Source: a virus. From it: 64,000 bases of DNA. A program made the position numbers and the translations under genes. The notes under the pieces are model-generated. The model did not search any database, was not told where the DNA came from, and saw only the letters and a program-made list of their open reading frames with translations. The stretch spans positions 276,393 through 340,392 of the IMG/VR virus record IMGVR_UViG_3300012931_000759. One strand, 5' to 3'. This document shows positions 30,232 through 60,565 of the stretch, piece after piece (position 1 is the first letter of the stretch; the number at the start of each line of letters is the position of its first letter).

Positions 30232-30519
30232 ATGCCGATATATGACTACATTTGCGAGGAATGCGGCCACGTCTTCGAGGAGTTTGCGCGTATCACGGAT
30301 CCTCCGATTAATAAATGTCCGGCCTGCGGCCTAACGGGACGCGTATGTCGCCTAATCTCGAGCGGCACAGTTGGCACAGTAGAGATGAACGGTCGGGAGT
30401 ACTTCAATCGTGTCTTAGAACCGGAGGCCAAGCGGATCGCCGAGAAGATTAAGCACGGGGATGATGCCGCAATCGCTGATGTTTTTGGCGAGGGCCCTCC
30501 TGCAAAAAAAGTCGGTTGA
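30232..30519 (+). CDS. FmdB-type zinc-ribbon protein
   Basis: The 95-residue protein begins MPIYDYICEECGHVFEEF and has CPACG 20 residues after CEECG; this is the FmdB zinc-ribbon family, small presumed regulatory proteins. The tail is acidic and basic without pattern (EAKRIAEKIKHGDDAAI). The start has GGGGAAAAAGGCC upstream. It overlaps the -35 region of the promoter for the PrkA block. Family function is poorly known; some are called formamidase regulators, but that is not supported here. Confidence 0.8.
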   Translation: MPIYDYICEECGHVFEEFARITDPPINKCPACGLTGRVCRLISSGTVGTVEMNGREYFNRVLEPEAKRIAEKIKHGDDAAIADVFGEGPPAKKVG

Positions 30520-30544
30520 ATTCCGGCTGCCCTGTGCGTATAAT
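30516..30544 (+). promoter_or_regulatory. Sigma70-like promoter for the PrkA-YeaH-SpoVR block
   Basis: TTGAAT (30516-30521), a 17-base spacer, then consensus TATAAT (30539-30544). It is the best housekeeping-type promoter in the window and would start transcription about 60 bases before PrkA. The transcript leader then carries a hairpin at 30577-30591. It implies that host RNA polymerase reads this block independently of the upstream genes. Confidence 0.65.
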
Positions 30545-30576
30545 CTCTTTAAACAGGGGAAGGATTGCGTCCCGCT

Positions 30577-30591
30577 CCGGCCAAAGGCCGG
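30577..30591 (+). other. Leader hairpin before prkA
   Basis: CCGGCC-AAA-GGCCGG is a perfect GC stem with a 3-base loop, 24 bases before the prkA ATG and just before the AGGATGGAG ribosome site. A short run of A follows, not T, so it is not a terminator. It could stabilise the mRNA or tune translation; that is inferred. Confidence 0.45.
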
Positions 30592-30614
30592 GAAAAACCG
30601 CGAAAGGATGGAGC

Positions 30615-33600
30615 ATGGAAGTGATCAACACCGGCAAAAAGGGCAAGAAGACCAAGGATCAGGAAGAGACGGCGGAGAACGGGGCGCTCGACCTTGTTGC
30701 CCTCATTGAGCAATGTGCGGCCGAAGAGGATCTTGAGCCATGGGAGGGCACGCTTCGCGATTATCTCCCGATGGTACAGGATGATTGTACACTGGCGGAC
30801 ACGGCCCACGCAAGGCTGTGGCGCATGATTGAGACAGTCGGCATCAAGTTCGACGACAAGGATGAGCGGAAAGAGCATCCCGAGTACAGCTTTTTCACCA
30901 ACGAGTTGTTCGGCATCAATGACACGCTGGCCAGCGTCATGGAATATCTCAGGGCTGCCGCAGCTGGATCCGACGTCGCCCGGCGAATCCTGCTCCTATA
31001 CGGGCCCACGAGTTCCGGTAAATCGCAGTTCGCAATCCTCCTTAAGGAGGGTCTGGAGAAGTTCTCGCGCACCAAGGCCGGGCGCATGTTTGCCCTCAAA
31101 GATTGCCCGATGCACGAGAACCCCTTGAACGCGGTGCCCAAGGCTGCGAGGGAGCAATTGAAGGCTAAGTATGGCCTCAATATTGAAGGTGACTTGTGTC
31201 CGCGCTGTGCCTACAGGCTCAAGACCGAGTTCAACGGCGACTTCATGGCTCTGCCGGTCGAGCGCGTGCTCCTGTCCGAGGCCAACCGAGTGGGTATCGG
31301 CACGTTCCAGCCGGCCGATCCCAAGTCGCAGAACCAGTCCGAGCTGACGGGCTCCGTCAACTTCGCCAAGCTGGCCGAGCTGGGCTCGGAGTCGCACCCG
31401 CTGGCTTTCGACTTCAACGGCGAGCTGAACAAGGCCAACCGCGGCATGATGGAGTTCATCGAGCTCCTGAAGGTGGACCGCAAGTTCAGGCACATCCTCC
31501 TGACGCTGGCGCAGGAGAAGCGCATCAAGGCACAGAATTTTCCGCTCATTTTCGCGGACCTAGTAGTAATCAGCCATAGCGTGTCTGGCGATATGCCTGT
31601 TCCCTATAGAGAGAATGGGTTGGTTCGATTTACCACAATGAGGCAACTGTGTGATGCCAACAACACCAACATCGAGGTTCTTGCTGCCGATGCCAATGGC
31701 AAGCCCGCATGGACGAAAGTGAAAGGATTCTATCGTCACCAGTTCTCTGGCAAAATGGTGAAGACCGTACAGGTTGATGGTGTTGTCAACACTACTTGGC
31801 ATCATTCTTTGATTGGCAAGGCGGACAATGCGCCTTTTCTGCCCGAAACGCTTCAAGATGTCCTGGCATTCAGGAATGTTCCTGAACAAACCGAACTTGG
31901 GACATTCGATGTTCCGGTTCCCGATTCGTTGTCCTATTTACCCGTTAATACCCCAGGTATCTTGTCCACGGATTGCTGTGTTCCCGAGCAATCCTTTGCT
32001 CGTGTTAAACCAACTGGCAACAAGAAAAGTGATGGAGAATACGGCAAATATTGGATCAAAACTCGCTACGATTCTTGTTCCGAGGAAGCGAAAGACATTG
32101 TTGCTCTTCTGTGTTGGTATGCTACAGAGGGTCATGTCTCGAATGAGCATGCGATCATTTCCCAAGCCAACCTGGAAACTCTATTTTCCCTGAAGAAGAG
32201 AGCGGAGAGGGTTTCTTCAGCCATAGGGTCTGTGTTTGATCGATCGGATGAGGAGGATCACACTAGCCGCCTTCACCTTTCGGCAAGGGTGTGGCGGGAA
32301 ATTCTTGAGCACAATTGCGGAAGATATAGCGAAAACAAGCGTTTGCCAGATTTTGTGTTCAATTTGCCTCGTGAGTTGCGTGAATTCGCTTTACGAGAAC
32401 TCATAAAGGGAGATGGTCAGACTATGCCATCGTTCGCATCCTGCGAGGAATATGCCAAAAAGTACTTTGCCTTCAAAACGACAAGCATTATTCTGGCAGC
32501 CCAATTCTGCTATTTGGCAAGTTCGCTTGGGTACGATTTTGGCGTACATCATGGATATACGAAAAAGGGAAAGGATTTCTTTGGCATCAATTATCGGGAA
32601 CGAACGAAGCCCATACTAAGGAAAAACAGGATCGAGACCGTTGAGGTGTCCGACAGCGAAGTATTCGATATCGAATGCGTGGACAATCATTCTTTTGTGG
32701 CTGGCGTTGGCAACCTTGTTTGCCACAATACGAATGAGACCGAGTACCTCAAGTTCCTCGCCCAGAAGGAGGAGGAAGCGCTCCACGACCGCCTGTGGGT
32801 CATCAAGTTCCCCTACAACCTGCGCCTCGAGGACGAGATCAAGATCTACGAGAAGCTCATTTCCAGGGCGGCCGGGTTCCAAGGTATCCACATCGCGCCA
32901 CACACCCTGCGCGTGGCGGCGATGTTCGCCATCCTGAGCAGGCTGGAGGAGTCCAAGGACCAGAAGTTCACCCTGCTGACCAAGATGCGCCTGTACAACG
33001 GCGAGAAGGTCGACGGGGCCGGCAAGGAGGACGAGAAGAGGCTGCGCGAGGCTGCCGAGCGCGAGGGCATGGACGGCATCAGCCCCCGCTACATCGTGAA
33101 CCGCATCTCGGCCTGCTTCACCAAGCACGGTCGGACCTACATCACCCCGATGGACATCGTCCGCAGCATCAAGGAGGGGTTCTCCACCAACGCCAAGCTG
33201 TCGAAAGAGGACATCTCGCGGTTCGAGAACATTATCACGACGGTGATGGAGGAGTACAACAAGATCGCAACAAACGAGGTTCAGAAGGCTTTCTTCCTGA
33301 ATTTCGAGCACGAGATCAAGGATCTGCTCAATAACTACATCGACAACGTTGGTGCCTATCTGGACGATGACAAGATCCAAAACCACTGGGGCGAAATGGA
33401 GGAGCCGAACCACCGCCTCATGAGGAGTGTCGAGGAGAAAATTGGCATCACCGACGGCGGCAAGGATGCTTTCCGCCAAGAGGTGTACCGCAAGATGATC
33501 AAGAGCAAGAGCGAGACGGGCGACTACGACTACCAGAACCATCCGCGCCTGAAGGAGGCGCTACAGAAGCAGTTGTTCGAGGAGCGCAGCGACATCATCA

Positions 33601-33752
33601 GGCTGACGGTGTCCGTGCGGAATCCTGATGCCGATGCGCTCAAGCGGCTGAACGAGGTCATCAAGACCTTGAGCGAAAAATGCGGTTACACTCCGGAGAG
33701 CGCCAATGATTTGCTGCGTTATGTCAGCAGCATATTGGCGAAAAACAGCTAG
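30615..33752 (+). CDS. prkA: PrkA (YeaG) serine protein kinase family protein with an intein
   Basis: Without its intein the protein has 661 residues, close to E. coli PrkA (about 640). The AAA+ part has LLYGPTSSGKSQFAI near residue 130 (P-loop), a Cys pair CPRCAYRLKTEF, SELTGSVNFAKLAELGS and GMMEFIELLKVDRKF, all PrkA landmarks. The extein junction VVISH/TNETEYLKF is the conserved HTNE site. The C-terminal half (LRVAAMFAILSRLEESK, SPRYIVNRISAC) is the PrkA-specific domain. PrkA is described as a Ser kinase, and more recently as a protease, acting in sporulation and starvation. ATG 30615 follows AGGATGGAG; longer TTG starts are rejected. YeaH and SpoVR follow. Confidence 0.92.
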   Translation: MEVINTGKKGKKTKDQEETAENGALDLVALIEQCAAEEDLEPWEGTLRDYLPMVQDDCTLADTAHARLWRMIETVGIKFDDKDERKEHPEYSFFTNELFGINDTLASVMEYLRAAAAGSDVARRILLLYGPTSSGKSQFAILLKEGLEKFSRTKAGRMFALKDCPMHENPLNAVPKAAREQLKAKYGLNIEGDLCPRCAYRLKTEFNGDFMALPVERVLLSEANRVGIGTFQPADPKSQNQSELTGSVNFAKLAELGSESHPLAFDFNGELNKANRGMMEFIELLKVDRKFRHILLTLAQEKRIKAQNFPLIFADLVVISHSVSGDMPVPYRENGLVRFTTMRQLCDANNTNIEVLAADANGKPAWTKVKGFYRHQFSGKMVKTVQVDGVVNTTWHHSLIGKADNAPFLPETLQDVLAFRNVPEQTELGTFDVPVPDSLSYLPVNTPGILSTDCCVPEQSFARVKPTGNKKSDGEYGKYWIKTRYDSCSEEAKDIVALLCWYATEGHVSNEHAIISQANLETLFSLKKRAERVSSAIGSVFDRSDEEDHTSRLHLSARVWREILEHNCGRYSENKRLPDFVFNLPRELREFALRELIKGDGQTMPSFASCEEYAKKYFAFKTTSIILAAQFCYLASSLGYDFGVHHGYTKKGKDFFGINYRERTKPILRKNRIETVEVSDSEVFDIECVDNHSFVAGVGNLVCHNTNETEYLKFLAQKEEEALHDRLWVIKFPYNLRLEDEIKIYEKLISRAAGFQGIHIAPHTLRVAAMFAILSRLEESKDQKFTLLTKMRLYNGEKVDGAGKEDEKRLREAAEREGMDGISPRYIVNRISACFTKHGRTYITPMDIVRSIKEGFSTNAKLSKEDISRFENIITTVMEEYNKIATNEVQKAFFLNFEHEIKDLLNNYIDNVGAYLDDDKIQNHWGEMEEPNHRLMRSVEEKIGITDGGKDAFRQEVYRKMIKSKSETGDYDYQNHPRLKEALQKQLFEERSDIIRLTVSVRNPDADALKRLNEVIKTLSEKCGYTPESANDLLRYVSSILAKNS
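31578..32729 (+). other. Intein in PrkA (Ser1, LAGLIDADG endonuclease), 384 aa
   Basis: It begins at Ser in SVSGDMPVPYRENG, the usual block A, and ends HN (SFVAGVGNLVCHN) before Thr, so splicing residues S1, penultimate H, terminal N and +1 T are all present. The middle has LLCWYATEGHVS and ALRELIKGDGQTMPS, degenerate LAGLIDADG helices. It lies in the most conserved part of the AAA+ core. The DNA is AT-richer than its flanks, which suggests recent arrival. Confidence 0.88.
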
Positions 33753-34334
33753 ATGGCCAATGAGATTTGTGCCAGATGCGGCAGACCGAGAAAAGTGGCC
33801 GAAAGAACGCCAGATGGTCCAATTTGCCACAACTGCTACAAAAAAGAGCACATTGAGCCATGCCGGTTCTGTGGGAAACAGAAAGCAGTTGCTGCCCGAG
33901 ATGATAACGGCGCGGCCATCTGCGACAACTGTAACAAAGAACACAACAAATGTTCGTGTTACGTGTGCCATGAAGTTAGACAAGTTCGTGCGCGTGCGGA
34001 AAACGGACAGCCACTGTGTCTTGCTTGTCATCGTTTGACTAATCTTGGACAGTTTTTCGCATCGTACAAGAGAGGAGCCAGCCTGCGCGGTCATATATTC
34101 GAACTCACGTTGGATGAGTTTGAACAATTGGTGCGCAGGCCATGCTGGTACTGTGGACGCTACAACCGGGGAGAAATTTTCAGCGGCGTGGACAGAATCG
34201 ACAGTTCATGCGGCTATGTTCGAACCAATGTGCTACCGTGCTGCGGCGAGTGTAACCTGATGAAAGGTTCCTTGTCCAAGGACGCGTTCCTTGCTAGCAT
34301 TGTGCGCATAGCCAGACATTTGGAAAACAAATGA
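33753..34334 (+). CDS. HNH homing endonuclease with zinc ribbons
   Basis: The 193-residue protein starts at the base after the prkA stop. It has several Cys pairs in the first half (CARCGRPRK, CHNCYKKEH, CRFCGK, CDNCNKEH, CYVCHEVR, CLACHR), a zinc-ribbon array that probably helps bind DNA, then an HNH core: CWYCGRYNRGEIFSGVDRID and LPCCGECNLMKGSLS. It interrupts the PrkA-YeaH pair, whose genes are normally neighbours, and overlaps the start of the DUF444 gene by four bases. The gene is likely mobile. Confidence 0.9.
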   Translation: MANEICARCGRPRKVAERTPDGPICHNCYKKEHIEPCRFCGKQKAVAARDDNGAAICDNCNKEHNKCSCYVCHEVRQVRARAENGQPLCLACHRLTNLGQFFASYKRGASLRGHIFELTLDEFEQLVRRPCWYCGRYNRGEIFSGVDRIDSSCGYVRTNVLPCCGECNLMKGSLSKDAFLASIVRIARHLENK

Positions 34335-35500
34335 ACGACTCCTACAAGGACATCTGGGAACTCCGACAGCCCGGTCGACGCGACTCAGAACGCCATAAGG
34401 TGCGTATCAGAAAGGCTATCAAGGAGAACCTACGGGAGCTGATCGCGGAGGAGAATATCATCTCCTCCGACGGCAAACGCAAGGTCAAGGTTCCGGTGCG
34501 CTACCTTGATATGTGGCGATTTAAATTCGGTCCTAATTCTAAGTCCAAGGATGTTGGTCATGGCGAAGGTGATCCTGGCGACATCATTGCCAAGGAAGGC
34601 AAGGGGAAAGGTAATAAGGCAGGTGACCAGCCGGGTGAGGAGTTGTACGACGAGGAGGTCGAACTAGCCGAAATCGTGGACATGATGCTGGAAGACCTCG
34701 GCCTCCCATGGTTAAAGCGGAAAGAGAATCAGGTCGAGATCGAGACAGAAGAGATGGTTTTCCACGACATCGCCGAGAAGGGTCTTCCCCCGAACGTCGA
34801 CCTGAAGCGGACACTCATCGAGAACCTGAAGCGGAACTCTATCGCCGGGAAGCCCTCGTTCGGCAAGATTGTGCCGGACGATCTGCGGTACAGGGTGTGG
34901 GAGAATGTGGTAGAGAAGCACTCTAACGCATCTGTAATCCTAATCATGGACCGCTCCGGGAGCATGACGGACGATAAAAAGTATATCGTGAAGTCTTTCT
35001 TCTTCTGGATGGTTAGTTTCCTGCGCATGAAATACGGGAATGTGGAGGTCGTCTTCATCGCGCACGACACCGAGGCCAGGGAGGTGGGGGAGGAGAACTT
35101 CTTTGCCATCTCTGATGGGGGAGGCACGCGCATCAGTTCCGGGCTGGAGCTGGCCAAGACGATCATCGAGACTAGGTTCCCCACAAACATCTGGAATAAC
35201 TACGTCTTCTCGTTCTCGGACGGCGAGAATTGGGATACGGACAACGAGCGCTGTATAGCCATGTTCAGAGAGTTACTTGGGATGTGCCAGGCGGTTGGAT
35301 ATGGGGAGGTGTCGTATACCGATCAGTTCTACAGCTGGTCCTCGTGGCGCGGCCACTGGTCGACCCTCCACGATGCCATTAAGGAGGCGGACGACCTAGT
35401 TGGGGAACCGAGATTCCTACAGGCGGCAATCGTGAAGCGCGAGGACCTATACGACTGCCTGCGTCAGTTTCTGGATGTCGACGGGAAGGAGAAGCCATGA
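34331..35500 (+). CDS. yeaH: DUF444 / YeaH-YhbH family protein with von Willebrand A domain
   Basis: The 389-residue protein has the conserved DUF444 N-terminus (RDSERHKVRIRKAIKENLRELIAEENIIS), a Gly-Lys-rich linker, and a vWA-type metal-binding site ILIMDRSGSMTDDKK near residue 207 (DxSxS MIDAS), then FSDGENWDTD near 297. YeaH partners PrkA/YeaG in E. coli stress physiology, with SpoVR/YcgB next to them, and this order (PrkA, YeaH, SpoVR) is kept here apart from the HNH gene. It overlaps the HNH gene and the SpoVR gene by four bases. Slightly shorter than E. coli YeaH (about 427). Confidence 0.93.
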   Translation: MNDSYKDIWELRQPGRRDSERHKVRIRKAIKENLRELIAEENIISSDGKRKVKVPVRYLDMWRFKFGPNSKSKDVGHGEGDPGDIIAKEGKGKGNKAGDQPGEELYDEEVELAEIVDMMLEDLGLPWLKRKENQVEIETEEMVFHDIAEKGLPPNVDLKRTLIENLKRNSIAGKPSFGKIVPDDLRYRVWENVVEKHSNASVILIMDRSGSMTDDKKYIVKSFFFWMVSFLRMKYGNVEVVFIAHDTEAREVGEENFFAISDGGGTRISSGLELAKTIIETRFPTNIWNNYVFSFSDGENWDTDNERCIAMFRELLGMCQAVGYGEVSYTDQFYSWSSWRGHWSTLHDAIKEADDLVGEPRFLQAAIVKREDLYDCLRQFLDVDGKEKP

Positions 35501-36966
35501 GGGACAGTCGCATCGTTGACTTGGAGCAGCTGGCGCGCAAGAACGGGCTCGATTTTTTCCCGGTGGTATTCGAGGTCGTAAGCGAGAATACGATGAACAA
35601 CGTGTGCGCCTACGGCCTGCCCACCAGGGCCAGGCACTGGAGTTACGGTCGTTCGTACGACCACCAGCGGATCTATGGGGAGATGGGGTTTTCGAAGGTG
35701 TTCGAGATGATCACCAACAACGATCCCTCGTACGCATTCGTCCTGGATAGCAACACGGAGGCCCAGAACCTCCTGATCGTGGCCCACTGTTTCGGGCACA
35801 GCGACTTCTTCAAAAACAATATAACATTCCAGGGCAGTGACCGCAACATGGCGCGGCATGCCGCGGAGCACGCCAACAGGATCGATGAGTACATCGAACA
35901 ATACGGCCTAGATGCGGTCGAACGCCTGATGGATATCGGTTTCAGCCTCGATTCCCATATCGATGTCCACAAGGGGCTGTATCGTAAAAAGTACCCAAGG
36001 AGGCACATCGAGGAGCGCCGGGTGAAAGCGAACGAGTTCGACGACCTGGATCCAGCCAAGGCTAGGCGGCCCTCCATGATCCGCGAGGTGGTAAACGCCA
36101 CCATGCCTCCTCACCCAGAGAGGGACTTGTTGTGGTTTTTCATCCAATATGCGCCATTGGAGGACTGGGAGCGCGACATTCTCGACATCGTGCGTGAGGA
36201 GTCGTTCTATTTCTATCCACAACGCCTAACCAAAATCATGAATGAAGGCTGGGCCGTTTACTGGCATGCTGAACTTTTACACCAATACAAGAATATCACG
36301 CCCGAGGAGATGATCGATTTTGCGCGTACCCACGAACGGGTTGTTCAGCCGGGAAACCCGTTCGACATTAATCCGTACTATCTCGGTTATAGAATCTACA
36401 AAGACATAGAGAAGCGCTGGGATAGGATGTATGCCGAGGGCGAATCGTCCATCACGGGCCGCCAGAAAATTTTCGAGGTTCGGCGTGACGAGGACGACGT
36501 GTCATTCCTGCGCAACTACCTGACGGCCGACTTGGTCCAAGAGCTGAAGCTATTCACCTTTGGGCGCGAGAACGAGGAGCCGGATCAGGACGAGGATGAG
36601 GAGGTCCTGTACGAGATCAAGAGCCGTATGCGCGAAGAAGTTGTCGAGGCCTTGGTGAAACCCCGGTACAATAACTGGGCACCCAAGATCGTGATCACGG
36701 ACGCAAGCTCCGAGAAGATCTGCCTGCGGCACGAAAGTGAGGAACTGGGCACGCTCAATTTCCGGTACGCCGAGCATATGCTTGAGTACGTTTGGGAGCT
36801 TTGGGCTGCGCCCGTGGAGTTGCGGACCAAGGACGACAATGGCAGGGAGGTTGTGCTCCTGTTCGACGAGGCTGGATTTTCGCAGCGAACACTTGAGGAG
36901 GAGTTTGACCTCGATGATGATGGAGACGAGGAAAAGGACGAGGGTCCGTTCAAGAAGACCCCTTAG
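35497..36966 (+). CDS. spoVR: SpoVR family protein (YcgB-like)
   Basis: The 489-residue protein has GLPTRARHWSYGRSYDHQRI near residue 40, LIVAHCFGHSDFFKNN near 92 and the NEGWAVYWHAELLHQYKN block near 248, which are SpoVR hallmarks, plus FFIQYAPLEDWERDILDIVR. The C-terminus is acidic. SpoVR is needed for spore cortex formation in Bacillus and its relatives are co-expressed with PrkA and YeaH; its biochemical activity is not known. Here it completes the triad and starts by ATGA overlap after YeaH. Length is close to E. coli YcgB (about 510). Confidence 0.95.
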   Translation: MRDSRIVDLEQLARKNGLDFFPVVFEVVSENTMNNVCAYGLPTRARHWSYGRSYDHQRIYGEMGFSKVFEMITNNDPSYAFVLDSNTEAQNLLIVAHCFGHSDFFKNNITFQGSDRNMARHAAEHANRIDEYIEQYGLDAVERLMDIGFSLDSHIDVHKGLYRKKYPRRHIEERRVKANEFDDLDPAKARRPSMIREVVNATMPPHPERDLLWFFIQYAPLEDWERDILDIVREESFYFYPQRLTKIMNEGWAVYWHAELLHQYKNITPEEMIDFARTHERVVQPGNPFDINPYYLGYRIYKDIEKRWDRMYAEGESSITGRQKIFEVRRDEDDVSFLRNYLTADLVQELKLFTFGRENEEPDQDEDEEVLYEIKSRMREEVVEALVKPRYNNWAPKIVITDASSEKICLRHESEELGTLNFRYAEHMLEYVWELWAAPVELRTKDDNGREVVLLFDEAGFSQRTLEEEFDLDDDGDEEKDEGPFKKTP

Positions 36967-38184: not shown

Positions 38185-41100
38185 ATGCCGATGATCTACT
38201 TGGTGGATGACATCGAATCCACTATCAAGAGAATGTTATCTGACGAGGAGCTGAGGGGTCTTGGTCTCAACAAGATCAAAGTGCGCCGAACCCTATCCTC
38301 GTTTAGGGGTGACGAGATTGCCGCTTCCGTTTTTCTCAAGAAATACGCCCTGCGTGATGCTGATGACGAGGTAGCCGAGCTGACCTTGGAGGAGGCCAAG
38401 GATCGGTGGGCGGTTGCCATCGCCAAGGGGGAGGAGCTGTTCTCTGGCGAGCGCAAGGAGGCTCCGTACTTCCGTGAACTGTATGAGCATTTCCTACCGG
38501 CTGGCCGCCAGATGTTTGCTTTGGGTAACAGCCAGATGAGAAACGTAACGTTCACGAATTGTCTGTCTGGCAGCACATTTGTGCCAACGGACGCAGGTTT
38601 ACGGAAATTGGATGCGCTGTCCAAGACAAAGGTGCGCCTGAACGGCAAAAGCTATATGGCCAAGGTTTGGCGCACGGGATCCAAGCTCGTTAGACGGTTG
38701 GATACTGTTGAAGGGTATTTTGCCCTGCCGACTGGCGACCATCGGTTCCAATTAGTCGATGGATCTTGGCGTTCTGTGGACAAACTCCAGCCCGGTGACC
38801 GCATTGTGTTGGGACATGATAGTAGGCCTTTTGGTCCTTCTAATGAACATGAAGAATTGAGAGGTTTTGCGGCTGGCCTATTTGTTGGAGTTGGTACATT
38901 TGCCGGTGAAGGTTTCCAGGTCGCAAATGTGCGTCTGTTCGGGAAGAATTCAAGATTCTTGGTGGAAAAGATTGCCAGTTTGTATGGTGGCAGTCCTCTC
39001 TCTCATGCTGAACATATATCCTATAACAGTACAGCATGGGCGCGCGATATGTTCGAAAGTACAGGCATCCAGCACGGCAATAAAACGATCACTGATCGTC
39101 TCATGTCCCAATCATGGTCGTTCCTGCGTGGTTTTTTGCGAGGACTGTTTGATGCCAATGGATGTGTTATTGATAGCCAAAAAAACCACCAGCGGCAGAT
39201 CGTGCTGGTCCAATCGGATCGCGACATGCTATGTCGGGTACAGATCCTCTTGTTGGCGTTTGGTATTCGTTCGGTCATATACAAGGGAGAATTTCCCAAG
39301 GGTGTTTTTCAGTGTCGACAAGGATGGTCTTTACACATTAGTAGACGTTCGTTCGAGACATTTGCCGAGTTCATAGGATTTGCGCATCCAAGCAAGGCGG
39401 CAAAGATGCGCACTGCGTTGAACCGTGCGCCTTTTAAGCCGGACATTTGGTATGCTCGTGTCAAAAGCGTAACGAATTTTCAACGCATGGATGTGTACGA
39501 TATGAGTGTTTTTGGTATACATGCGTTTCCGGCAAACGGTTTGGTTGCCCATAACTGCTATGTTACCCAGATCGAGGATGACAGTATTGAGGGCATCTAT
39601 GGCGCGGCCCAGAAACTGGCCAAAACATACTCGTACGGCGGCGGCATCGGACTGTGCGTGGGTGAATTGCGCCCTGCGGGCGCGCGTGTGTCGAACAGTG
39701 CGCGCCAGTCGACCGGCTCCGTCAGCTTCATGGAGCTGTTCTCGCTGACGACGGGCCTGATTGGCCAAGCGGGGCGCCGTGGCGCCCTAATGATTACCAT
39801 GCCAGTATCCCATCCAGACGCAGAAGAGTTCATCGAGGTCAAACACGGGAACACTGACAAGGTTAAGTACGCGAACATTAGTCTGAAACTGACCGACGAG
39901 TTCATGCAGGCCGTCGTCGAGGACAGGATGTTCCGGCAGACCTACACCACGAAGCATGAGACGGTGTGGCGCGAAGTGCGCGCCCGTGACCTATGGCAGA
40001 AAATCATCCAGAGCGCCCGTGACTCGGCAGAGCCCGGCCTGATGTTCTGGGATCGCATGGTGACCATGTCGCCCTCGGAAATTTACCCGAGATTACAAGT
40101 CCATAGTACTAATCCTTGTGTGACGGGAGATACTTTAGTTGCGACGCCTTCTGGCTGGAAAAGGGCCGATTTATTCCAAAAAGGCGATCATATTTCTACT
40201 GTGTGTGGTTTCGGTTTGGTCGAAAGAGTAGAAACACATCATAATGTACCGGTCTACAAAGTAGAATTTTCAGACGGAACGATATTGAAAGTAACTGCTG
40301 CCCATCAGTTCCATGTGGCAAAAAAGGATACAAAAACAGAAAAATATCCAAGGAAATATACTCCTACCAGGCTAGATCAAATGGAAGTTGGGGATTTTGT
40401 AAGGGCTTCTGGTTTCGAATGTCCAGATCTGCCAGAAGGCCAATTAAAAGATTTTTGTGACGCTTTTTTGGCTGGTGTGTTGTTGGGAGACGGATGTTAC
40501 ACTCCAAAAATGACAGCTAGTAAAGTGGTAAAGATTGCATCTGATATCAGAGACAATAAATGGAACGAGCTACTAAAGAGCAAATTTGGAGAACGTGGTG
40601 TGATATTATCTTGCTACGGGGCGACAGATGGGTCATGTTCTTGTAGTCTTACCTCGCAGAATGGCGACTTGGTGAGCTTGGTGGACGAATTTGGTCTGGT
40701 TCACACATATTCTTATCATAAGCGTATTCCTGATCATTTGTGTTTTGGAAACAAAGAACAAATGCGAGGTGTTCTAGATGGTCTTTTCTCCACTGATGGA
40801 AATGTGAATCTTAGCGGAGACTCTCCACAGATAAGGTTGAAATCCACATCACGGTTTATGTTGGCCCAAGTTAAGAGAATGCTTCTGATGTTTGGCATAT
40901 TCTCGTCATTGGGGAATGTCGGTAAAACTTCAATAATACTTGGGCGAAAAGTAAAATCACGAGACCGATACGAATTGGTTGTGAGCGGGCAAAGTGTCGA
41001 TTTTTTCATCAGACGTATAGGGATCTCTCATCCAGCAAAGAAGGCGTTATGCCAAGATTTGCTTTTGAATTGGGCTTTGACTGGTAACACTTGGAGAGTA

Positions 41101-42591
41101 AAACTGAAATCGGTTGAGTTCATGGGATGCGAAACGGTCTATGATATCTATGAACCATCCACCGATACATGGATTACGGATGGAATTGTTTCGCGCGGTT
41201 GTGGAGAGCAGATCCTGGAGAAAGGCGGCGCCTGCGTGCTGGGCTCGCTGTTGCTCCACACCTTCGTGGTCGACCCGTTCACGCCACAGGCGCGATTTGA
41301 CTTCGACTGCTTCAAGCAGATGACCAGGCGAGCCGTCAGGCACCTGGATAACGTGGTCGAGCTGAACTTTGGTCGGCATGCCCTCGAAGAGCAGGAGGAG
41401 GCGGCCCAGCTCGGACGCCGAATTGGCCTTGGAGTGACTGGCCTCGCCGATACACTTGCGGCCCTTGGCATCAAGTACGACTCTGAAGAGGCACTTAAGG
41501 CGGTCGACCAGGTTATGTCGGCCAAAAAAGACGCCGAATACCGTGCTTCAATCGACCTGGCTATGGTACGCGGGCCTTTCAGGATGTTTGATCCCAAGGC
41601 ACACTATGAGCAGGGTTTCTGCGCCACGTTGCCGGAGGAGATCAAGGCGTTGGGACGCGAGCGTGGCCAGAGGAACGTTGCCATCTCGACCGTCGCTCCG
41701 GCCGGTAGTCTGAGTGTGATAGCCCAATGCTCAAGCGGTATCGAGCCCGTTTTCGCGCTTCGCTACAAACGATATGTCGAACTGGGCTCGGAACGAAAGG
41801 AGTTCTCCATCCGCCACCAAGGTTTGTCGCGCATGGCTGCAGTTCTGGGTAGCGAGACGGCACCGTGGTGCTGGGTCACGGCCCATAGTATCGACCACCG
41901 ATTCAGGGTGGCTATGCAGGGCGTCATCCAGAGGCATACTGATGCCTCGATCTCGAGTACCATCAACCTACCTAAGGATGCCATGGCCGAGACCGTCGGC
42001 GAAATCTACATGGACGCCTGGAAGGCGGGACTGAAGGGAATTACGGTGTACCGTGAGGGCGCGCGAGAGGGTATACTTGTAACAGAGGAGTTTGCCCGGC
42101 AGGCTGGATCCCCGATGGACACCATTATCTACGAGGCGAGAGCGGAGGCGGGGGACAAGTTCTATATTCCGATCTCCTACACTGGAGGTGATGTAAGGAA
42201 GCCTTACCAGGTGTTCCTGATCAACTACAAAACCTCTGAGAATGACCGGTTTGCCAAAATGGGCAACGATTTGGTGCGTATGCTGCGCGAGAAAGGCGTA
42301 GAGGACGCTGACCCGAAGCGTTTCCAGAAGTACCTGGATCGGAGCACGACACAGCTGGGGAAGATTACAAGATTCCTGTCCCTCTCCATGAAAACGGGCC
42401 ATTTTGAGGAGGCAGTCGAGATTCTTGGCGAGCATGGCACGGTTGGAACGCTAGCTGCCGAGCTATACAAGATTCTTCGCATAAGTCTCGCAAACGCGAA
42501 GGTTTTGTGCCCCAACTGCGGTAGCTCGAACGTCAGGATGGAGGAGGGATGTCGGCATTGCCTGGATTGTAGTTGGTCGGGTTGCGGATAG
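38185..42591 (+). CDS. nrdJ: Class II (adenosylcobalamin-dependent) ribonucleotide reductase with two inteins
   Basis: The precursor has 1,468 residues; removal of inteins of 332 and 361 residues leaves 775. Extein landmarks are GRQMFALGN, NVTFTN/CYVTQI, YGGGIGLCVGELRP, STNP/CGEQILEKGGACVLGS (the NPCGE Cys block), and a C-terminal Cys ribbon (CPNCG...CRHCLDCSWSGCG) as in NrdJ. NPCGEQ and the zinc tail favour class II, which uses cobalamin instead of a separate radical subunit, and no NrdB is nearby. It makes deoxynucleotides for phage DNA. AGGAGAG precedes the ATG. The second intein lacks its normal end residues, so splicing is in doubt. Confidence 0.88.
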   Translation: MPMIYLVDDIESTIKRMLSDEELRGLGLNKIKVRRTLSSFRGDEIAASVFLKKYALRDADDEVAELTLEEAKDRWAVAIAKGEELFSGERKEAPYFRELYEHFLPAGRQMFALGNSQMRNVTFTNCLSGSTFVPTDAGLRKLDALSKTKVRLNGKSYMAKVWRTGSKLVRRLDTVEGYFALPTGDHRFQLVDGSWRSVDKLQPGDRIVLGHDSRPFGPSNEHEELRGFAAGLFVGVGTFAGEGFQVANVRLFGKNSRFLVEKIASLYGGSPLSHAEHISYNSTAWARDMFESTGIQHGNKTITDRLMSQSWSFLRGFLRGLFDANGCVIDSQKNHQRQIVLVQSDRDMLCRVQILLLAFGIRSVIYKGEFPKGVFQCRQGWSLHISRRSFETFAEFIGFAHPSKAAKMRTALNRAPFKPDIWYARVKSVTNFQRMDVYDMSVFGIHAFPANGLVAHNCYVTQIEDDSIEGIYGAAQKLAKTYSYGGGIGLCVGELRPAGARVSNSARQSTGSVSFMELFSLTTGLIGQAGRRGALMITMPVSHPDAEEFIEVKHGNTDKVKYANISLKLTDEFMQAVVEDRMFRQTYTTKHETVWREVRARDLWQKIIQSARDSAEPGLMFWDRMVTMSPSEIYPRLQVHSTNPCVTGDTLVATPSGWKRADLFQKGDHISTVCGFGLVERVETHHNVPVYKVEFSDGTILKVTAAHQFHVAKKDTKTEKYPRKYTPTRLDQMEVGDFVRASGFECPDLPEGQLKDFCDAFLAGVLLGDGCYTPKMTASKVVKIASDIRDNKWNELLKSKFGERGVILSCYGATDGSCSCSLTSQNGDLVSLVDEFGLVHTYSYHKRIPDHLCFGNKEQMRGVLDGLFSTDGNVNLSGDSPQIRLKSTSRFMLAQVKRMLLMFGIFSSLGNVGKTSIILGRKVKSRDRYELVVSGQSVDFFIRRIGISHPAKKALCQDLLLNWALTGNTWRVKLKSVEFMGCETVYDIYEPSTDTWITDGIVSRGCGEQILEKGGACVLGSLLLHTFVVDPFTPQARFDFDCFKQMTRRAVRHLDNVVELNFGRHALEEQEEAAQLGRRIGLGVTGLADTLAALGIKYDSEEALKAVDQVMSAKKDAEYRASIDLAMVRGPFRMFDPKAHYEQGFCATLPEEIKALGRERGQRNVAISTVAPAGSLSVIAQCSSGIEPVFALRYKRYVELGSERKEFSIRHQGLSRMAAVLGSETAPWCWVTAHSIDHRFRVAMQGVIQRHTDASISSTINLPKDAMAETVGEIYMDAWKAGLKGITVYREGAREGILVTEEFARQAGSPMDTIIYEARAEAGDKFYIPISYTGGDVRKPYQVFLINYKTSENDRFAKMGNDLVRMLREKGVEDADPKRFQKYLDRSTTQLGKITRFLSLSMKTGHFEEAVEILGEHGTVGTLAAELYKILRISLANAKVLCPNCGSSNVRMEEGCRHCLDCSWSGCG
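38560..39555 (+). other. Intein 1 in RNR (Cys1, LAGLIDADG), 332 aa
   Basis: It starts at Cys in CLSGSTFVPTDAG after FTN and ends FPANGLVAHN before Cys of CYVTQI. C1, penultimate H, terminal N and +1 C are all present, so splicing is expected. The endonuclease helices are seen as AAGLFVGVGTFAGE and LRGLFDANGCVI. It is inserted in a conserved active-site block. Confidence 0.9.
40117..41199 (+). other. Intein 2 in RNR with non-canonical C-terminus (RG instead of HN), 361 aa
   Basis: It starts at Cys in CVTGDTLVATPSGW after STNP and stops at IVSRG before the extein CGEQ. Block A, VYKVEFSDGTILKVTAAHQF (block B with H) and LAGLIDADG helices (FLAGVLLGDGCY, LDGLFSTDGNVN) are intact, but the last residues read Arg-Gly where His-Asn is expected. 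The codons are TCG CGC GGT before TGT. It is markedly AT-rich. Asn cyclisation is not possible as read, so it may be inactive, splice by another route or cleave. Confidence 0.85.
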
Positions 42592-46541: not shown

Positions 46542-48734
46542 ATGAGGGATAAGGGTTCCATGGGATTGACCCAAAGTTTCCGCCTGATCCGGTTCAAGGA
46601 CGTAGAGGGACTAGATGCGGAGGATCTTCTGGAGTATACTCCGGACGGCATTCAAGTCCGTTCAGAGATGCTCGGAAAAGTGGTCGAGGATGCTGTCCAT
46701 CGTAACAAATGGACCAGGCGGGGGCTGACCAGGATCCTTTATGAGTGTTTCAAAGGCCACAGCGGTAGTACCAGTCTATATCCGGCCGAGGTGACGTACG
46801 GGCAGCAGAATAACTGCTTCGCCGCGCTTTTTGTGGCGGCAGACGACGCTGGCACGGCGGCTAGCCGCTCCATATCTGGAAACGCCTTGGACACGATCAC
46901 GAAATCCAGCAACCAGATTTACCTAGTCAATGGAAATTTTACGGGTGCCGATGTAGGCAAACTGATCCAGATCACTGGTGGCACCCGGGAAGGCAATAAG
47001 GGTTTTCGGCTCATCACCCAGGTGCTGGGCGCAACCACTGTTGTGGTTACGGGATACGGCTCCTCCGGAGGTTTTGCCTCCAACGCCACGGAGAATTTTG
47101 GTGGCGTCGCCCTGTGGACCATTGTTCGTCCGGCGGATGCGCGTGTTGAATGGAATGAGTCGGACGGTCAGTTCAATACCAAGATTCCGCAGGGAAACGC
47201 TTCCGGCGCGGCTCTTTCTGAACGTGGAAGTAGGGCTTGTCTTATTTCTGATACGGCCGCAAGTACCTTTAGGCGAATGTCGATCGGATATGTTACAACT
47301 AATCCTTTCCGTGAAATTGAGTATGTTTTCTATGCCTTGGGTTCTTCTATCAGTAGGAACGTCACAGGCTCGCCCCTTGATAGTATTTTTGCTCAAACCA
47401 ATACAATTACATTGACCAATGCGAATTTTTCGCCGAGCGATGTTGGTAAGATTTTAAAAATTTCTGGCGCATCAAACTCTATAAATAATGGGCAGAGGCG
47501 TATTACTGTCTATGTAGATAATACACATGTTAAGACAGATGGACAGTATGCTATAGATGCCTATGAGAATTTTATGAGCGCGCAAGCGCAAGATGGTTTG
47601 TATTCTGCCTCGGCAGAAACCGGATATAAGGGTCTTGATTATTTGCCACTAAAGACCATAGGTCTTTCCGAGGGCATAGCCTGTGGATCAAGTGAGACCT
47701 CGAATCGCACTGGAATTCACTCTGTGCTCGGAATACAGCCAACATTACAAGGTGTGTGTGACCGCATCTATGTTCATGAGGGTACAGGCCTCCATAAATA
47801 TACTGGAGCTGAGACTCTTGGAACATTTGGTGATGGATACGTTCAGGACTCTTCTGTAGGTAATTTCACTGGTGATAAAATCTGTGATGGCTATGTACAG
47901 GGTGAAGGTTTAGATGGTTATGTAAACCTTGGAAGTAGGTGGATGTCTACGGCCGGTAGTAACCATATAATTGGACGTGTTTGGTCAACTACGACTGCGA
48001 AAAAACTCACAGGTATCCGCATAATTTTTCCGCTAGGTGAGAATAAGAATAATTGTCCGGATAGTTTCTTTATTCAGTATTTAGATGCCTCAACGGTTGG
48101 AGATATTCCTGGTAATTTACAGCCAGCAAATAATAGTTGCTGGACTACTATAGGAAGTCTTTATAGTAACCAGGGTGACACCATATTTTCCAATAGAGAG
48201 TATGGTGTAGAGTATACGTTTACCATTCCTGGCGGGGCCGATGCATATGGCATTAGATTATATAATCTGAATGCCTATTCCAATACTGCGGCTGTAGAAG
48301 TTGCGGAATTATATGCTTTTACAGCCGTACCTACTATTTTGATGACAGCGGATACGACGGACCAACTGCGCCTTGCGATTAAGGCTTCACCGTTGTCTGC
48401 TGATTTTCGGAACTTCTATCTTGGGTCATTATCTACAACTAGTGTCGCAACTTTGGTGAACACATTAAATGCACAACTTCGCGGCTATCAGATTGAGGCT
48501 GTGCGGTCCAATTTTGGATATTTATGGATTCGCGGTACTGTACAAGGCAATAATAGCTATTTGACATTAGATTCCATAGATAATGGATCTTCTGCAAACA
48601 CATTATTAGGTATGCCAGTATCAACTATCCGTCGGGCCAAGCAGGGTGCGACGCAGGTTATCATGAAATTGCCTTGTGACGCATTAGCTATCATCTACAG
48701 ATTTGCTATTTCGGGCGATTTACCCATGCCCTGA
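46542..48734 (+). CDS. Large virion (tail-type) structural protein
   Basis: The 730-residue protein starts at ATG 46542 after AGGAGG. Two repeats share LDxI...N.I.L.N.NF...DVGK..I.G....N.G.R.IT..V (near residues 110-175 and 268-330), a module common in phage tail and receptor-binding proteins. It has three DGY tripeptides (GDGYVQ, CDGYVQ, LDGYVN). The N-terminal 100 residues (TRRGLTRILYECFKGHSGS) are different and may attach it to the particle. The middle is clearly AT-richer than the glycan and replication blocks. The fold is inferred as beta-rich. Confidence 0.7.
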   Translation: MRDKGSMGLTQSFRLIRFKDVEGLDAEDLLEYTPDGIQVRSEMLGKVVEDAVHRNKWTRRGLTRILYECFKGHSGSTSLYPAEVTYGQQNNCFAALFVAADDAGTAASRSISGNALDTITKSSNQIYLVNGNFTGADVGKLIQITGGTREGNKGFRLITQVLGATTVVVTGYGSSGGFASNATENFGGVALWTIVRPADARVEWNESDGQFNTKIPQGNASGAALSERGSRACLISDTAASTFRRMSIGYVTTNPFREIEYVFYALGSSISRNVTGSPLDSIFAQTNTITLTNANFSPSDVGKILKISGASNSINNGQRRITVYVDNTHVKTDGQYAIDAYENFMSAQAQDGLYSASAETGYKGLDYLPLKTIGLSEGIACGSSETSNRTGIHSVLGIQPTLQGVCDRIYVHEGTGLHKYTGAETLGTFGDGYVQDSSVGNFTGDKICDGYVQGEGLDGYVNLGSRWMSTAGSNHIIGRVWSTTTAKKLTGIRIIFPLGENKNNCPDSFFIQYLDASTVGDIPGNLQPANNSCWTTIGSLYSNQGDTIFSNREYGVEYTFTIPGGADAYGIRLYNLNAYSNTAAVEVAELYAFTAVPTILMTADTTDQLRLAIKASPLSADFRNFYLGSLSTTSVATLVNTLNAQLRGYQIEAVRSNFGYLWIRGTVQGNNSYLTLDSIDNGSSANTLLGMPVSTIRRAKQGATQVIMKLPCDALAIIYRFAISGDLPMP

Positions 48735-48743
48735 GGTGAAATT

Positions 48744-49409
48744 ATGATAACCGGACATTTCGACCTTGTGCTTAAAAATGCCAAGGGACTCGTAGACGAG
48801 GATTTCCATGAAGCACATCAATATGGGCGACTACCTTATATGTTGGATAGTTTAAATACAGAACTTGAAGCCCATACCGACAATCTAGTAATGGACGGTG
48901 TTGTGCTATATCTGGGATATAATTTATTCCAGGTAACTGATACTGCAGGATCACAAATAAGTGTTTTGGCTACTAGTACTTCAGCATGGTTTAGTTGTAT
49001 TTGTTTGCTGACAACTGATAGTGAGCCGAATTACACATCTGAATGGAATAGAACCTCATTTACTTTTCAGACTCCAAGTAATGTTCCGGAATCAGCTAAC
49101 ACCTCGAGTGGCGGTAAGCGTTTTAAAGAAGATGCCTCAGAGGTACCGGATGTAAGGTCGGATCAAGGCGGCAGGGAGGCGATTTTTTACCGTGACCGGT
49201 GGTTATACCTTCCATCGCAGGGAATATCATCCAACATCCGAAGTATACAGGCACATATGGCAAACAATCAGGATGGTGGCAATAACTATTATTTTGGACG
49301 TTCTGCTAGGATTCGCATTAAAGATGCCGGCGGAAATCCTATCATCATCAGTAAGACTTCAAGCCAAGTATTGCTTGTTGAGTATCGACTGTCGTTTGTA
49401 AGTATCTGA
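48744..49409 (+). CDS. Hypothetical virion-associated protein (221 aa)
   Basis: The protein starts at ATG 48744 after GAGGTG. It has strand-rich segments (LYLGYNLFQVTD, SVLATSTSAWFSCICLL), a polar loop region (PESANTSSGGKRF), and ends LVEYRLSFVSI. It may be a small tail, fiber-tip or collar protein. No family is recognised; context between virion proteins is the main argument. Confidence 0.6.
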   Translation: MITGHFDLVLKNAKGLVDEDFHEAHQYGRLPYMLDSLNTELEAHTDNLVMDGVVLYLGYNLFQVTDTAGSQISVLATSTSAWFSCICLLTTDSEPNYTSEWNRTSFTFQTPSNVPESANTSSGGKRFKEDASEVPDVRSDQGGREAIFYRDRWLYLPSQGISSNIRSIQAHMANNQDGGNNYYFGRSARIRIKDAGGNPIIISKTSSQVLLVEYRLSFVSI

Positions 49410-49454
49410 TCACGTAGATTTGTACGGAATCGTTTTGACGCGAAGGTACCCTAG

Positions 49455-51596
49455 ATGACAAGTCGCATTTCGATTTTTGTGAATGATTTCAATGACGATA
49501 TACAGGATCTTCCGGTTATGTCGGGGAATGGAGTTGTGTCTGAAACCGGTGGGGCGTTGGTTGTATCTTCGGATGGCAACCATAACATGAACTGGAATTC
49601 ATCAGGGCGCAACGGAAAATTACCTTATGTAACTGTCCCAATTATCTCAGAATTTACCAAGGTTTATTATGAGTTTACGGTAAAATCATGGACGACGACC
49701 AATCCAACTTATAGCCATTTTGTGGCAGCCTTGTTTCAGAGTGATGCCATTCTTTGGATTCTTGGATCCTCGGATGGTCTGAATTTTTGGGTGATGAAAA
49801 ATTGGGGAACCGCAAGCGCAAGTATTGCGACCACATTACCCCGAAAATTTCGTTTTGTGTGGGATAGATCTAATCCAATCTCGAGTACGTTGACTGTTCA
49901 ATACCAAGTTAGTGCCGACCCTTACATCTGGGCGGATATCGTCTCCAACCAGGCCATAAGTATGACGCCGATCGGGCTCGGTTTTGGTATCAAGAATACG
50001 AATACGTTTCCTGACTGTACAGTTCAATATGAGAATACCGAGATTTATGCCGAGAATGATCAATTCTCACTCTTGGATCAATGCGGTATTGAGGACTCTG
50101 TAGGAACTGGTACCGAAATTATTGGTACTGGCATTTTGTCGGTCGATAAACTACGCAATATTGACAATACTAATAGTGTTGAAGATGAGGGTTTTGCTCG
50201 TCTCGGCTTTGTACCAGCATACTGCCCATCAACCAATGATTTAGAGGGTCATCCATTTTTTTTGGATACGTTTGGTGCACCACGTCTACGAAGTGCCTTT
50301 TTATACGATGCGACACATGATCCTTGGAACAATCCATTTATTTACAATTTAGATGGCTATGGACGCGACGGTCACCATTATATTGGTGGTATACAACAAG
50401 TTACGATGGCTCCATGGGCCACGGAGGTCGTAAGTGCTGATCGCAGTTCGAGGTCTGACTTTCCCGTTCGCTCGCTTATTGTCATTTCTCAGAACGAACT
50501 AGTGATATTCGATCTGGACAATTGGCCGACATCAATTATGATGTGGATGCGTTTTAGGCTGGGCGACGCCTCCAATCAGTATCTGGTCAACAGGATCGTC
50601 GATTCGCTGCGTGCGGTCAGGATGCTCAATGGAACCCTGATGGTTGGATCCCAGGATAATGGTACAGAAAGGGGCGGGCTCTTCTGCGTGGATTTTAAGC
50701 GAACCGGAACGGACTTTTTTCTTCTTGTCCGTTCTGATGGATGGTGGAATGGAACCCTCGGGCGTAACATTACGCACCGCAACCAGACAGGTAACTGGGT
50801 CAGCCAAGGTACAGGCTTCAAGCTGGATAGCGAATACGTCCATTACATCGGTGCTGCCATCGACAACAGTCTGGCTAATCGCGAAAGGACGTGGGTAGTC
50901 GCTGGCTCAGAGGGTCTTATCAGGATTGTAGAAATCCTGGCTAATCAGCCGCAGTTTGACTACAAACCGGTTGGTACTTTGACTGGGCCTCTCAACGATC
51001 TCATCACAGGTTTGAAGTGTTCATTCTTCGACAGTGCCGGTTGGCTATGGCTTGGATGGGGATCCTATGTGTTTCGCGCGATAGCCGATTTCCGGGGAGG
51101 CGTAATAGTGATGGGCGACAATCTCGGCGGCTCCCCGGAGGGACGGCACCGTTATGTTCAACTCCTCCACCCATCGGAATTAGTTGTAGTCAAGTCTTTA
51201 ACGCAAGTTAACGAGAGCATTTACGCGGCCACAAATGTAGGTGTGTACAGAATCAACAGGTTTACCATGGAGGCCTATCTCTGCTATACGATTTCCGGAG
51301 GTTTAGGGGGTGGAATGCTGAATCGGCCACCTGCCGGTGAGTTGCTCGGCGGAGAAGCTAAATACACAGAATGGGCTAAGGGCTTTGTGGTCAACCATTC
51401 TGGAAAACCCATCGGATATCTTGCAGTGGCCTCGGCGCAGACTACATTCTCCTCATCCTTACCTACGCATGGTAGCGGTGCTGTGACCCTAATCCGAACA
51501 TATGACGATAGTGTGATAGACCGGCGGATACACACCGGGGTATCCTCTGGATTGACCGAAGACGGTGCCTGGTTCTTTATGCCTTTTGGCACATAA
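49455..51596 (+). CDS. Virion protein with lectin-like N-terminus and propeller-like repeats
   Basis: The 713-residue protein shares its first 190 residues with the next gene: IFVNDFNDDIQDLPVMSGNG, VSETGGALVV, RNGKLPYVTVP, FTVKSWTTTN, RKFRFVWD, YENTEIYAEN. This domain looks like a concanavalin-type beta-sandwich. After residue 330, SLIVISQNELVIFDLDNW, TWVVAGSEGLIRIVEIL and INESIYAATNVGVYRIN-like segments suggest a propeller. A DGY occurs once (NLDGYGRDG). A glycan-binding or cell-contact role is inferred. Confidence 0.7.
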   Translation: MTSRISIFVNDFNDDIQDLPVMSGNGVVSETGGALVVSSDGNHNMNWNSSGRNGKLPYVTVPIISEFTKVYYEFTVKSWTTTNPTYSHFVAALFQSDAILWILGSSDGLNFWVMKNWGTASASIATTLPRKFRFVWDRSNPISSTLTVQYQVSADPYIWADIVSNQAISMTPIGLGFGIKNTNTFPDCTVQYENTEIYAENDQFSLLDQCGIEDSVGTGTEIIGTGILSVDKLRNIDNTNSVEDEGFARLGFVPAYCPSTNDLEGHPFFLDTFGAPRLRSAFLYDATHDPWNNPFIYNLDGYGRDGHHYIGGIQQVTMAPWATEVVSADRSSRSDFPVRSLIVISQNELVIFDLDNWPTSIMMWMRFRLGDASNQYLVNRIVDSLRAVRMLNGTLMVGSQDNGTERGGLFCVDFKRTGTDFFLLVRSDGWWNGTLGRNITHRNQTGNWVSQGTGFKLDSEYVHYIGAAIDNSLANRERTWVVAGSEGLIRIVEILANQPQFDYKPVGTLTGPLNDLITGLKCSFFDSAGWLWLGWGSYVFRAIADFRGGVIVMGDNLGGSPEGRHRYVQLLHPSELVVVKSLTQVNESIYAATNVGVYRINRFTMEAYLCYTISGGLGGGMLNRPPAGELLGGEAKYTEWAKGFVVNHSGKPIGYLAVASAQTTFSSSLPTHGSGAVTLIRTYDDSVIDRRIHTGVSSGLTEDGAWFFMPFGT

Positions 51597-51603
51597 GGCA
51601 ACA

Positions 51604-54501: not shown

Positions 54502-54504
54502 TAT

Positions 54505-59547: not shown

Positions 59548-60565
59548 TACCTGTATCGTGGTGTGCGACAAAAAGTACGATATCGGGACGCGTGTCGTCC
59601 TTTGGGGTGAGCCGGGCGGTCTGTGCGCCTACGACACCAAGGCGTACGAAACCCAGGATCGCAAAACTGGGGAGATCGTGGTGGTTAAGGGGAAGCGGTA
59701 CAAGTCGAGGCTCGCGCTCGGCGGAACGCCGAACCTGGAAAAGCTGAAGAAGATCGTGTGGCAGTTTGCTCTTCACCACTCCGGCCTGTACAGGTCGCGG
59801 GACACCTACGACACCCTCCAAGAACGTGGATTGTCCGTCCATTTTATACTGGACGACGATGGTACCCTCTACCAGTGCCTCGATGTGCGCGAGCGCGCCT
59901 ACCACATCGGGGGCAACAACGCCATGTCGATCGGCATCGAGATCGACTCTCGCGCTGCTGCCGGAAAATACCCTGACGCCTATGACGAGGTCCACCAGAA
60001 GAAGTACAAGGTCGGCCCGCGTAGAGTCAAAAGCGACACTATCCACGGCATGAAGATGAAGGGGTTCGAATACACCGACGGCCAGTATGCCACGCTGGCC
60101 AAGCTGGCTAAGAAACTGTTGGAGATCTTCCCTCTCATCCGGCCGGATTTTCCACGCGGCGCCGACGGAAGTGTCATTAAGATGGAGCTGAAGGATCCCA
60201 AGGCGTTCAAAGGTATCATCTGCCATTACCAGGTAACCAGTACCAAGATTGATCCTATCGCGTTCGACTACGACCGGTTCCTGATAGGCATCGGTACCAA
60301 CAAACTTGCCGTATCCGGCGGCGGCGGGGAGGAGCCGGAGGTCGAGACAGAGGAAGCGGTTCTGCCGCCAGCGGACCTGTCCACTTGGCTCGCGAGGCAG
60401 AAGGCTCTTAAGGCACTCGGCTACGATCCCGGAACTGTGGACGGCGTATTTGGGCCACACACGAAGGCCGCACTTCAGGCGTTCCAATCGGATCAAAGTC
60501 TCGATCCTGACGGAATCTGGGGCCCGAAGACCGAAGCCGTCATGCTAGCCACTATGGGGGAATAA
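59540..60565 (+). CDS. N-acetylmuramoyl-L-alanine amidase endolysin with peptidoglycan-binding domain
   Basis: The 341-residue protein has an Amidase_2 domain: FALHHSGLYRSRDTYDTLQ near residue 75 (first zinc His), SVHFILDDDGTLYQCLD, NAMSIGIEIDS and ICHYQVTSTKIDP near 232 (second His). A Gly/Glu-rich linker follows, then a PG_binding_1 domain (LKALGYDPGTVDGVFGPHTK, near 290-335). It cleaves the amide bond between MurNAc and peptide to release the phage. No signal peptide is seen, so export needs a holin not identified here. ATG 59540 overlaps tmk. Confidence 0.9.
   Translation: MSNTCIVVCDKKYDIGTRVVLWGEPGGLCAYDTKAYETQDRKTGEIVVVKGKRYKSRLALGGTPNLEKLKKIVWQFALHHSGLYRSRDTYDTLQERGLSVHFILDDDGTLYQCLDVRERAYHIGGNNAMSIGIEIDSRAAAGKYPDAYDEVHQKKYKVGPRRVKSDTIHGMKMKGFEYTDGQYATLAKLAKKLLEIFPLIRPDFPRGADGSVIKMELKDPKAFKGIICHYQVTSTKIDPIAFDYDRFLIGIGTNKLAVSGGGGEEPEVETEEAVLPPADLSTWLARQKALKALGYDPGTVDGVFGPHTKAALQAFQSDQSLDPDGIWGPKTEAVMLATMGE

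Follow-up and report, generated by a model that had tools for sequence, protein, structure and literature searches.

The window analyzed here, a 64,000-nucleotide stretch of DNA, forms the end of a virus record of 340,392 bases. It carries a class II ribonucleotide reductase gene interrupted by two inteins, and a third intein lies in a serine kinase gene (Table 1). Intein 1 of the reductase and the kinase intein both end in the ordinary His-Asn and, as two ordinary inteins of the same genome, serve as controls for intein 2, which occupies residues 645–1005 of a precursor whose frame is open across all 1468 residues.

Table 1. Features of the reductase and kinase genes, in positions of the window; residues of intein 2 are numbered from Cys1, and counts refer to 41 aligned inteins of the same insertion site, 23 of which end in Arg-Gly (RG)
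Feature	Position	Strand	Evidence or state
NrdJ precursor, class II (adenosylcobalamin-dependent) ribonucleotide reductase, 1468 aa, two inteins	38185..42591	+	TIGR02504 E 3.9e-132; PF02867 E 3e-90
RNR intein 1, 332 aa, internal control	38560..39555	+	ordinary His-Asn end, ..IHAFPANGLVAHN/C
RNR intein 2, 361 aa, RG-type, site TNP/CGEQ	40117..41199	+	ends WITDGIVSRG/C
Cys1, N-terminal nucleophile	40117..40119	+	C in 41/41
Glu39, RG-clade-specific	40231..40233	+	E in 23/23 RG, 0/18 others
Block B TAAH, Thr60 (B:7) to His63 (B:10)	40294..40305	+	T and H in 41/41
His66, RG-clade-specific	40312..40314	+	H in 22/23 RG, 0/18 others
Arg96, RG-clade-specific	40402..40404	+	R in 22/23 RG, 0/18 others
Asp343, block F:4	41143..41145	+	D in 41/41
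Asp350, block F:13, proposed relocated catalytic carboxylate	41164..41166	+	D in 23/23 RG; 18 others H 8, L 7, I 1, N 1, Q 1
Asp355, acidic versus Asn in others	41179..41181	+	RG: E 20, D 2, N 1; others: N 17, H 1
Arg360-Gly361, blocks G:6 and G:7, normally His-Asn	41194..41199	+	RG in 23/41, one tree branch
C-extein CGEQ, with Cys+1 as splicing nucleophile, in the conserved reductase loop NPCGEQ	41200..41211	+	
PrkA serine kinase gene	30516-33752		
PrkA intein, third of the window, 384 aa	31578-32729		starts Ser, ends ..NHSFVAGVGNLVCHN (His-Asn) before Thr

The sequence-only reading of this DNA had placed the end of intein 2 at S-R-G directly before CGEQ. Its coordinates are exact, and positions 41191–41202 of the raw sequence read TCG CGC GGT TGT in frame. 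It had also described the N-terminal splicing block and the endonuclease helices as intact, and inspection bears this out, with block A, block B (TAAH), both LAGLIDADG motifs, and the block F Asp all present. An AF2 model (pLDDT 89.2, pTM 0.88) shows a confident HINT plus LAGLIDADG endonuclease fold with a Z of 29.4 to the TliVMA intein in a structural comparison, and Gly361 (model residue 373) is the last aligned residue against most of the solved inteins listed, e.g. gp41-1 and Mtu RecA. By its open frame and this model, intein 2 is an intein in the usual sense: an in-frame insert at a conserved host site with a HINT fold. A splice site elsewhere was considered and rejected; excising 361 residues restores NPCGEQ, whereas an earlier end leaves extra residues in the loop, and Gly is therefore taken as the last residue of the intein. 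The NPCGEQ loop of the reductase is catalytic and carries the radical cysteine. Because the CGEQ loop is interrupted, the reductase depends on removal of intein 2, as had been argued, and the computed spliced enzyme has 775 residues and a mass of about 86.6 kDa. The claim that the usual cyclization is impossible holds as well, there being no terminal Asn, Gln, Asp, or Glu.

Relatives at this site were sought by pattern and by profile. The pattern G-phi-V-x-R-G-C-G-E matched 18 loci on viral contigs, 17 by chance and one real, a reductase intein ending His-Arg-Gly (L002). A longer pattern run on one genome per species gave 21 loci; 13 are chance matches and 8 are real Ser-Arg-Gly reductase inteins, from bins labeled Chloroflexota and Patescibacteria. 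All five loci returned from viral contigs by a wider pattern are RG reductase inteins (L002 and L085 to L088, with the intein DNA of L085 and L088 identical), and one of six matches in a further search (L103) was due to chance. Single-sequence searches of viral contigs with intein 2 and with its C-extein found no relatives, and phage and plasmid collections yielded distant inteins only (62 records, all <60% identity; 1 record; none).

These patterns require RG, and a profile built from nine RG inteins was used next. At a cut-off of 1e-30, it matched 15/301 genomes from the phylum of L021 and 4/379 from that of L028; at 1e-45, it matched 6/281 from the class of L031 and 13/249 from that of L032, the four samples being overlapping ones. 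All matches below 1e-150 end in Arg-Gly, values of about 1e-76 to 1e-87 go with Leu-Asp or Phe-Asp, and weaker matches end in HN, HQ, KQ, SN, AQ, or GQ; one further match, L080, has an end that was not read. Because other endings were recovered, the profile does not demand Arg-Gly. Further samples gave matches in 0/201 genomes in the phylum of the L040 genome (Armatimonadetes), where there was no positive control, 1/255 in that of the L026 genome (Phycisphaerales), with the end not read, and 6/256 in that of the L024 genome (Pseudonocardia), with RN ends in four and HQ ends in two. The RG inteins that entered the alignment described next come from five viral records, the window's included, and from Chloroflexota and Patescibacteria.

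We aligned 41 inteins of the TNP/CGEQ site, of which 23 end in RG, 8 in Leu-Asp or Phe-Asp, and 10 in Asn or Gln. All 41, whether RG or not, have TNP before Cys1 and CGE after the intein; VNP and GNP-like variants before Cys1 lie outside the alignment. Omitted were second copies of the same locus (L022 and L058 to L064), L088 as identical to L085, a member split between two contigs (L065 plus L066, also L038), L080, partial endonuclease matches (L067 and L068), and the His-Asn loci of one scan, which gave 15 loci, 13 of them reductase inteins and two not. The matches from the Phycisphaerales and Pseudonocardia samples postdate the alignment and stand outside the 41. Comparison with relatives at the NP/CGEQ site, suggested as a check in the sequence-only reading, shows 22 other aligned inteins that end in Arg-Gly too. 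This shared ending disposes of a read error or a chance feature peculiar to the contig, and a one-off defect is not supported, given its recurrence across the clade.

In a maximum-likelihood tree calculated with the last residues excluded, the RG inteins form one branch (support 99/97), as do the Asp type (100/98) and the Asn/Gln type (100/100), and the RG and Asp types together are supported at 100/100. Long branches of viral members meet, which drew a warning from the tree program; the order inside the RG clade is therefore unsure, and the branch uniting the clade is starred. Branch lengths within the clade total 11.4 changes per column, and Arg360, Gly361, and Asp350 are unchanged in 23/23 members. 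Five different codons for Arg and four for Gly encode the ending across these members, which indicates that the constraint acts on the protein. Across seven closely related pairs, six from the RG clade, dN/dS is 0.05–0.125 over the intein and 0.04–0.19 in the splicing blocks. A pair sampled from the phylum of L028 and the class of L031 (L082 and L090) is nested in a group otherwise from the L021 and L032 samples, and L021, labeled Chloroflexi, groups with Patescibacteria members; these positions in the intein tree suggest that RG inteins have moved horizontally.

Other endings occur at the same site. The sister clade consists of eight inteins (L070–L073, L091, L092, L101, and L102) with Leu-Asp or Phe-Asp ends and Leu or Ile at F:13. 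Inteins L074–L079, L081, and L083 end in HN, HQ, KQ, SN, AQ, or GQ, so that the C-terminal dipeptide is unusually free, and L106, L108, L109, and L110 of the Pseudonocardia sample end in Arg-Asn with Asn at or beside F:13.

The residues kept and replaced in the RG clade fall along the two halves of the splicing reaction. According to PMC4031507, the N-terminal steps rely on Cys1, Thr B:7, His B:10, and Asp F:4, and cyclization of Asn G:7 is assisted by His F:13 and His G:6. The four residues of thioester and branch formation are kept in 23/23 RG inteins, whereas the trio of Asn cyclization is replaced together in 23/23, with F:13 changed from His to Asp, G:6 from His to Arg, and G:7 from Asn to Gly. 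Residue 355 is Glu or Asp in 22/23 RG inteins versus Asn in 17/18 others; this residue, His66, and Arg96 each have one exception among the 23. In all, 15 columns pass the diagnostic cut for the clade. Several of these lie in the endonuclease part, so a residue that marks the clade need not be catalytic, and residues specific to a clade may reflect common descent and not function.

PF02867 matches no frame besides the RG-intein one in 13/19 cellular genomes; the remaining six have more than one RNR frame. In one of the six (G009), two frames look like a single gene split over two contigs, with the intein match cut at profile position 326 on both, and the other five carry further RNR frames. The NrdD family (class III) was found in 0/21 genomes and records, with 6/14 control genomes positive, and no second reductase was found in the window's virus record, which is possibly a fragment. 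Most cellular carriers apparently depend on the reductase that holds the RG intein, a status that may be an artefact in some, as nearly all carriers are virus contigs or metagenome bins for which no completeness is given. From the lone reductase in most carriers and the purifying selection, we infer that RG inteins very likely have a working means of removal. In one small genome (G924), three consecutive reductase frames lie on contig C29 (L090 and L093); an RG intein interrupts the first and a His-Asn intein the second, and another contig carries a fourth frame.

RG inteins have much in common with class 1 inteins that end in Asn, including the HINT fold, blocks A, B, and F, the nested LAGLIDADG endonuclease, Cys1, Thr B:7, His B:10, Asp F:4, and Cys+1. 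They differ in having Gly as the last residue, Arg at G:6, and Asp at F:13, and thus lack the cyclizable C-terminal residue of the class. Class 3 inteins are without Cys1, use Cys F:4 for the N-terminal junction, and have a WCT motif. There is a likeness to this class if a block F residue in RG inteins does the job that class 1 gives to the terminal residue; unlike class 3, however, RG inteins keep Cys1 and Asp F:4, and it is their C-terminal junction that has changed. Class 1 inteins ending in Asp, Gln, or Glu follow the same order of steps and are represented at this very site by the Asp-ending sister clade, but such terminal residues can still cyclize, as parts of PMC4031507 describe, and Gly cannot. 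B-type bacterial intein-like domains have no C-terminal His-Asn and undergo atypical C-terminal cleavage, as set out in sections of PMC7765530. They resemble RG inteins in being HINT domains without a His-Asn end, but they reside in variable proteins and mainly cleave, whereas RG inteins split a conserved loop in an essential enzyme, are followed by Cys+1, and contain an endonuclease; intein 2, although without His-Asn, sits inside the NPCGEQ loop of NrdJ. We found no Gly-ending intein in the open-licence literature, and earlier notice elsewhere is possible. To our knowledge, cyclization of the last residue is treated as a common step in all three intein classes. RG inteins would be a new class if their mechanism is as unusual as their sequence.

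We somewhat favor the reading that RG inteins are a working, class-1-like clade in which the C-terminal half of splicing has been rebuilt around Asp350. The N–S acyl shift at Pro-Cys1, transfer to Cys+1, and the final S–N shift would proceed as usual, and release of the C-extein would take place without cyclization of the last residue, which is impossible for Gly because it has no side chain. The Gly361–Cys+1 peptide bond would instead be opened by the carboxylate of Asp350 at F:13, which would either activate water as a general base or attack the Gly carbonyl as a nucleophile. Arg360, the replacement of His G:6, could help by taking over its oxyanion role, and His66, Arg96, Glu39, and the acid at 355 might assist, with Gly leaving space for the incoming carboxylate or water. 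Asp as the last residue is paired with Leu or Ile at F:13 in the sister clade, and Gly is paired with Asp in the RG clade, as if one carboxylate had been relocated; in this scheme, the carboxylate of the last step would have moved to F:13. The excised intein would be linear with a free Gly carboxylate. Because all members share one insertion site, residues of the host protein could also help. It is likely that splicing proceeds without cyclization; identification of Asp350 as the agent of Gly–Cys opening makes up the larger part of that judgment and would be its least certain step.

It is possible, if on balance unlikely, that Cys1 rather than Asp350 opens this bond by transpeptidation. Once the N-extein had moved to Cys+1, the freed Cys1 thiol would attack the Gly361 carbonyl; Cys+1 would be released and take the N-extein by an S–N shift, and the Gly thioester would become a Gly–Cys bond that closes the intein into a circle. 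In a variant, an N–S shift at Gly–Cys+1 itself would come first, a shift of the kind that occurs at Gly–Cys bonds of self-processing proteins. Such a route would account for a Cys at each junction (Cys1 and Cys+1, 41/41), for Gly as the least hindered acyl group, and for a –1 residue that is unable to cyclize. It leaves unexplained, however, the Asp at F:13 and the Arg at G:6 (23/23), and a literature search found no circular natural intein. A shade less probable is the wider proposal that RG inteins represent a fourth mechanistic class, in which double acyl transfer by Cys1 and Cys+1 would join the exteins and leave a seamless intein circle with no side-chain cyclization. The Asp350 and Cys1 routes draw only on accepted acyl-transfer chemistry, and their products differ by 18 Da, the computed average mass of intein 2 being about 40,097.5 Da when linear versus 40,079.5 Da as a circle.

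Explanations that look outside the intein, or that give up ligation, are more doubtful. Of the options that the sequence-only reading had named, an alternative route is well supported, as Arg-Gly is conserved throughout the clade. RNA-level removal, another of them, is not supported: purifying selection is at the protein level, and positions 39800–41500 have no Rfam match, to a group I or II intron model or otherwise, at E up to 1, a search that an unknown RNA could escape. It seems improbable overall that the intein is taken out at the RNA level, by the folded reductase, or by a protease or ligase acting in trans. The single insertion site of all members means that the host protein could contribute, but the clade-specific residues lie inside the intein, and self-processing is accordingly favored over trans-processing on sequence grounds. 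We give little weight to cleavage without ligation, after which the reductase would work in the form of two chains held together or of one branched chain. Cleavage is the main activity of bacterial intein-like domains, as PMC7765530 and PMC7664689 report, and the N-terminal machinery of intein 2 is intact; the break, however, would fall within the NPCGEQ loop, and Cys+1, invariant in 23/23, is needed for ligation and not for cleavage, although the reductase needs the same Cys. Decay, with splicing lost and the gene dead or redundant, strikes us as the least credible of these accounts. The virus may use a host reductase, and 6/19 cellular genomes have more than one RNR frame, but RG has been conserved through the 11.4 changes per column of the clade, dN/dS stays low in the splicing blocks of all seven pairs, no matched frame contains a stop, and the reductase is the sole one in the other 13 genomes. 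Intein 2 is therefore probably not a decaying element, and conservation of the same odd ending in bacterial and viral relatives suggests that it probably exits by a route not yet described.

A conserved clade of inteins without a cyclizable end, in an enzyme that many carriers seem to require, implies either a new way of breaking the bond or a reductase that tolerates a broken active-site loop. A Gly-ending intein could also serve protein engineering, as it would form no succinimide and might offer a different control of C-terminal cleavage.

Elsewhere in the window, four long ORFs (730, 713, 978, and 671 aa) at 46542–56520 have no Pfam or PHROG match at E up to 1e-5. At 30516–36966, the PrkA gene adjoins a DUF444 (YeaH-like) gene and then another ORF, which we take to be SpoVR-like; PrkA, DUF444, and SpoVR-like proteins are a bacterial stress and sporulation set that is unusual for a virus. 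A 488-residue protein at 60565–62031 has two stretches that match thymidylate synthase families and is perhaps a fused or duplicated ThyX.
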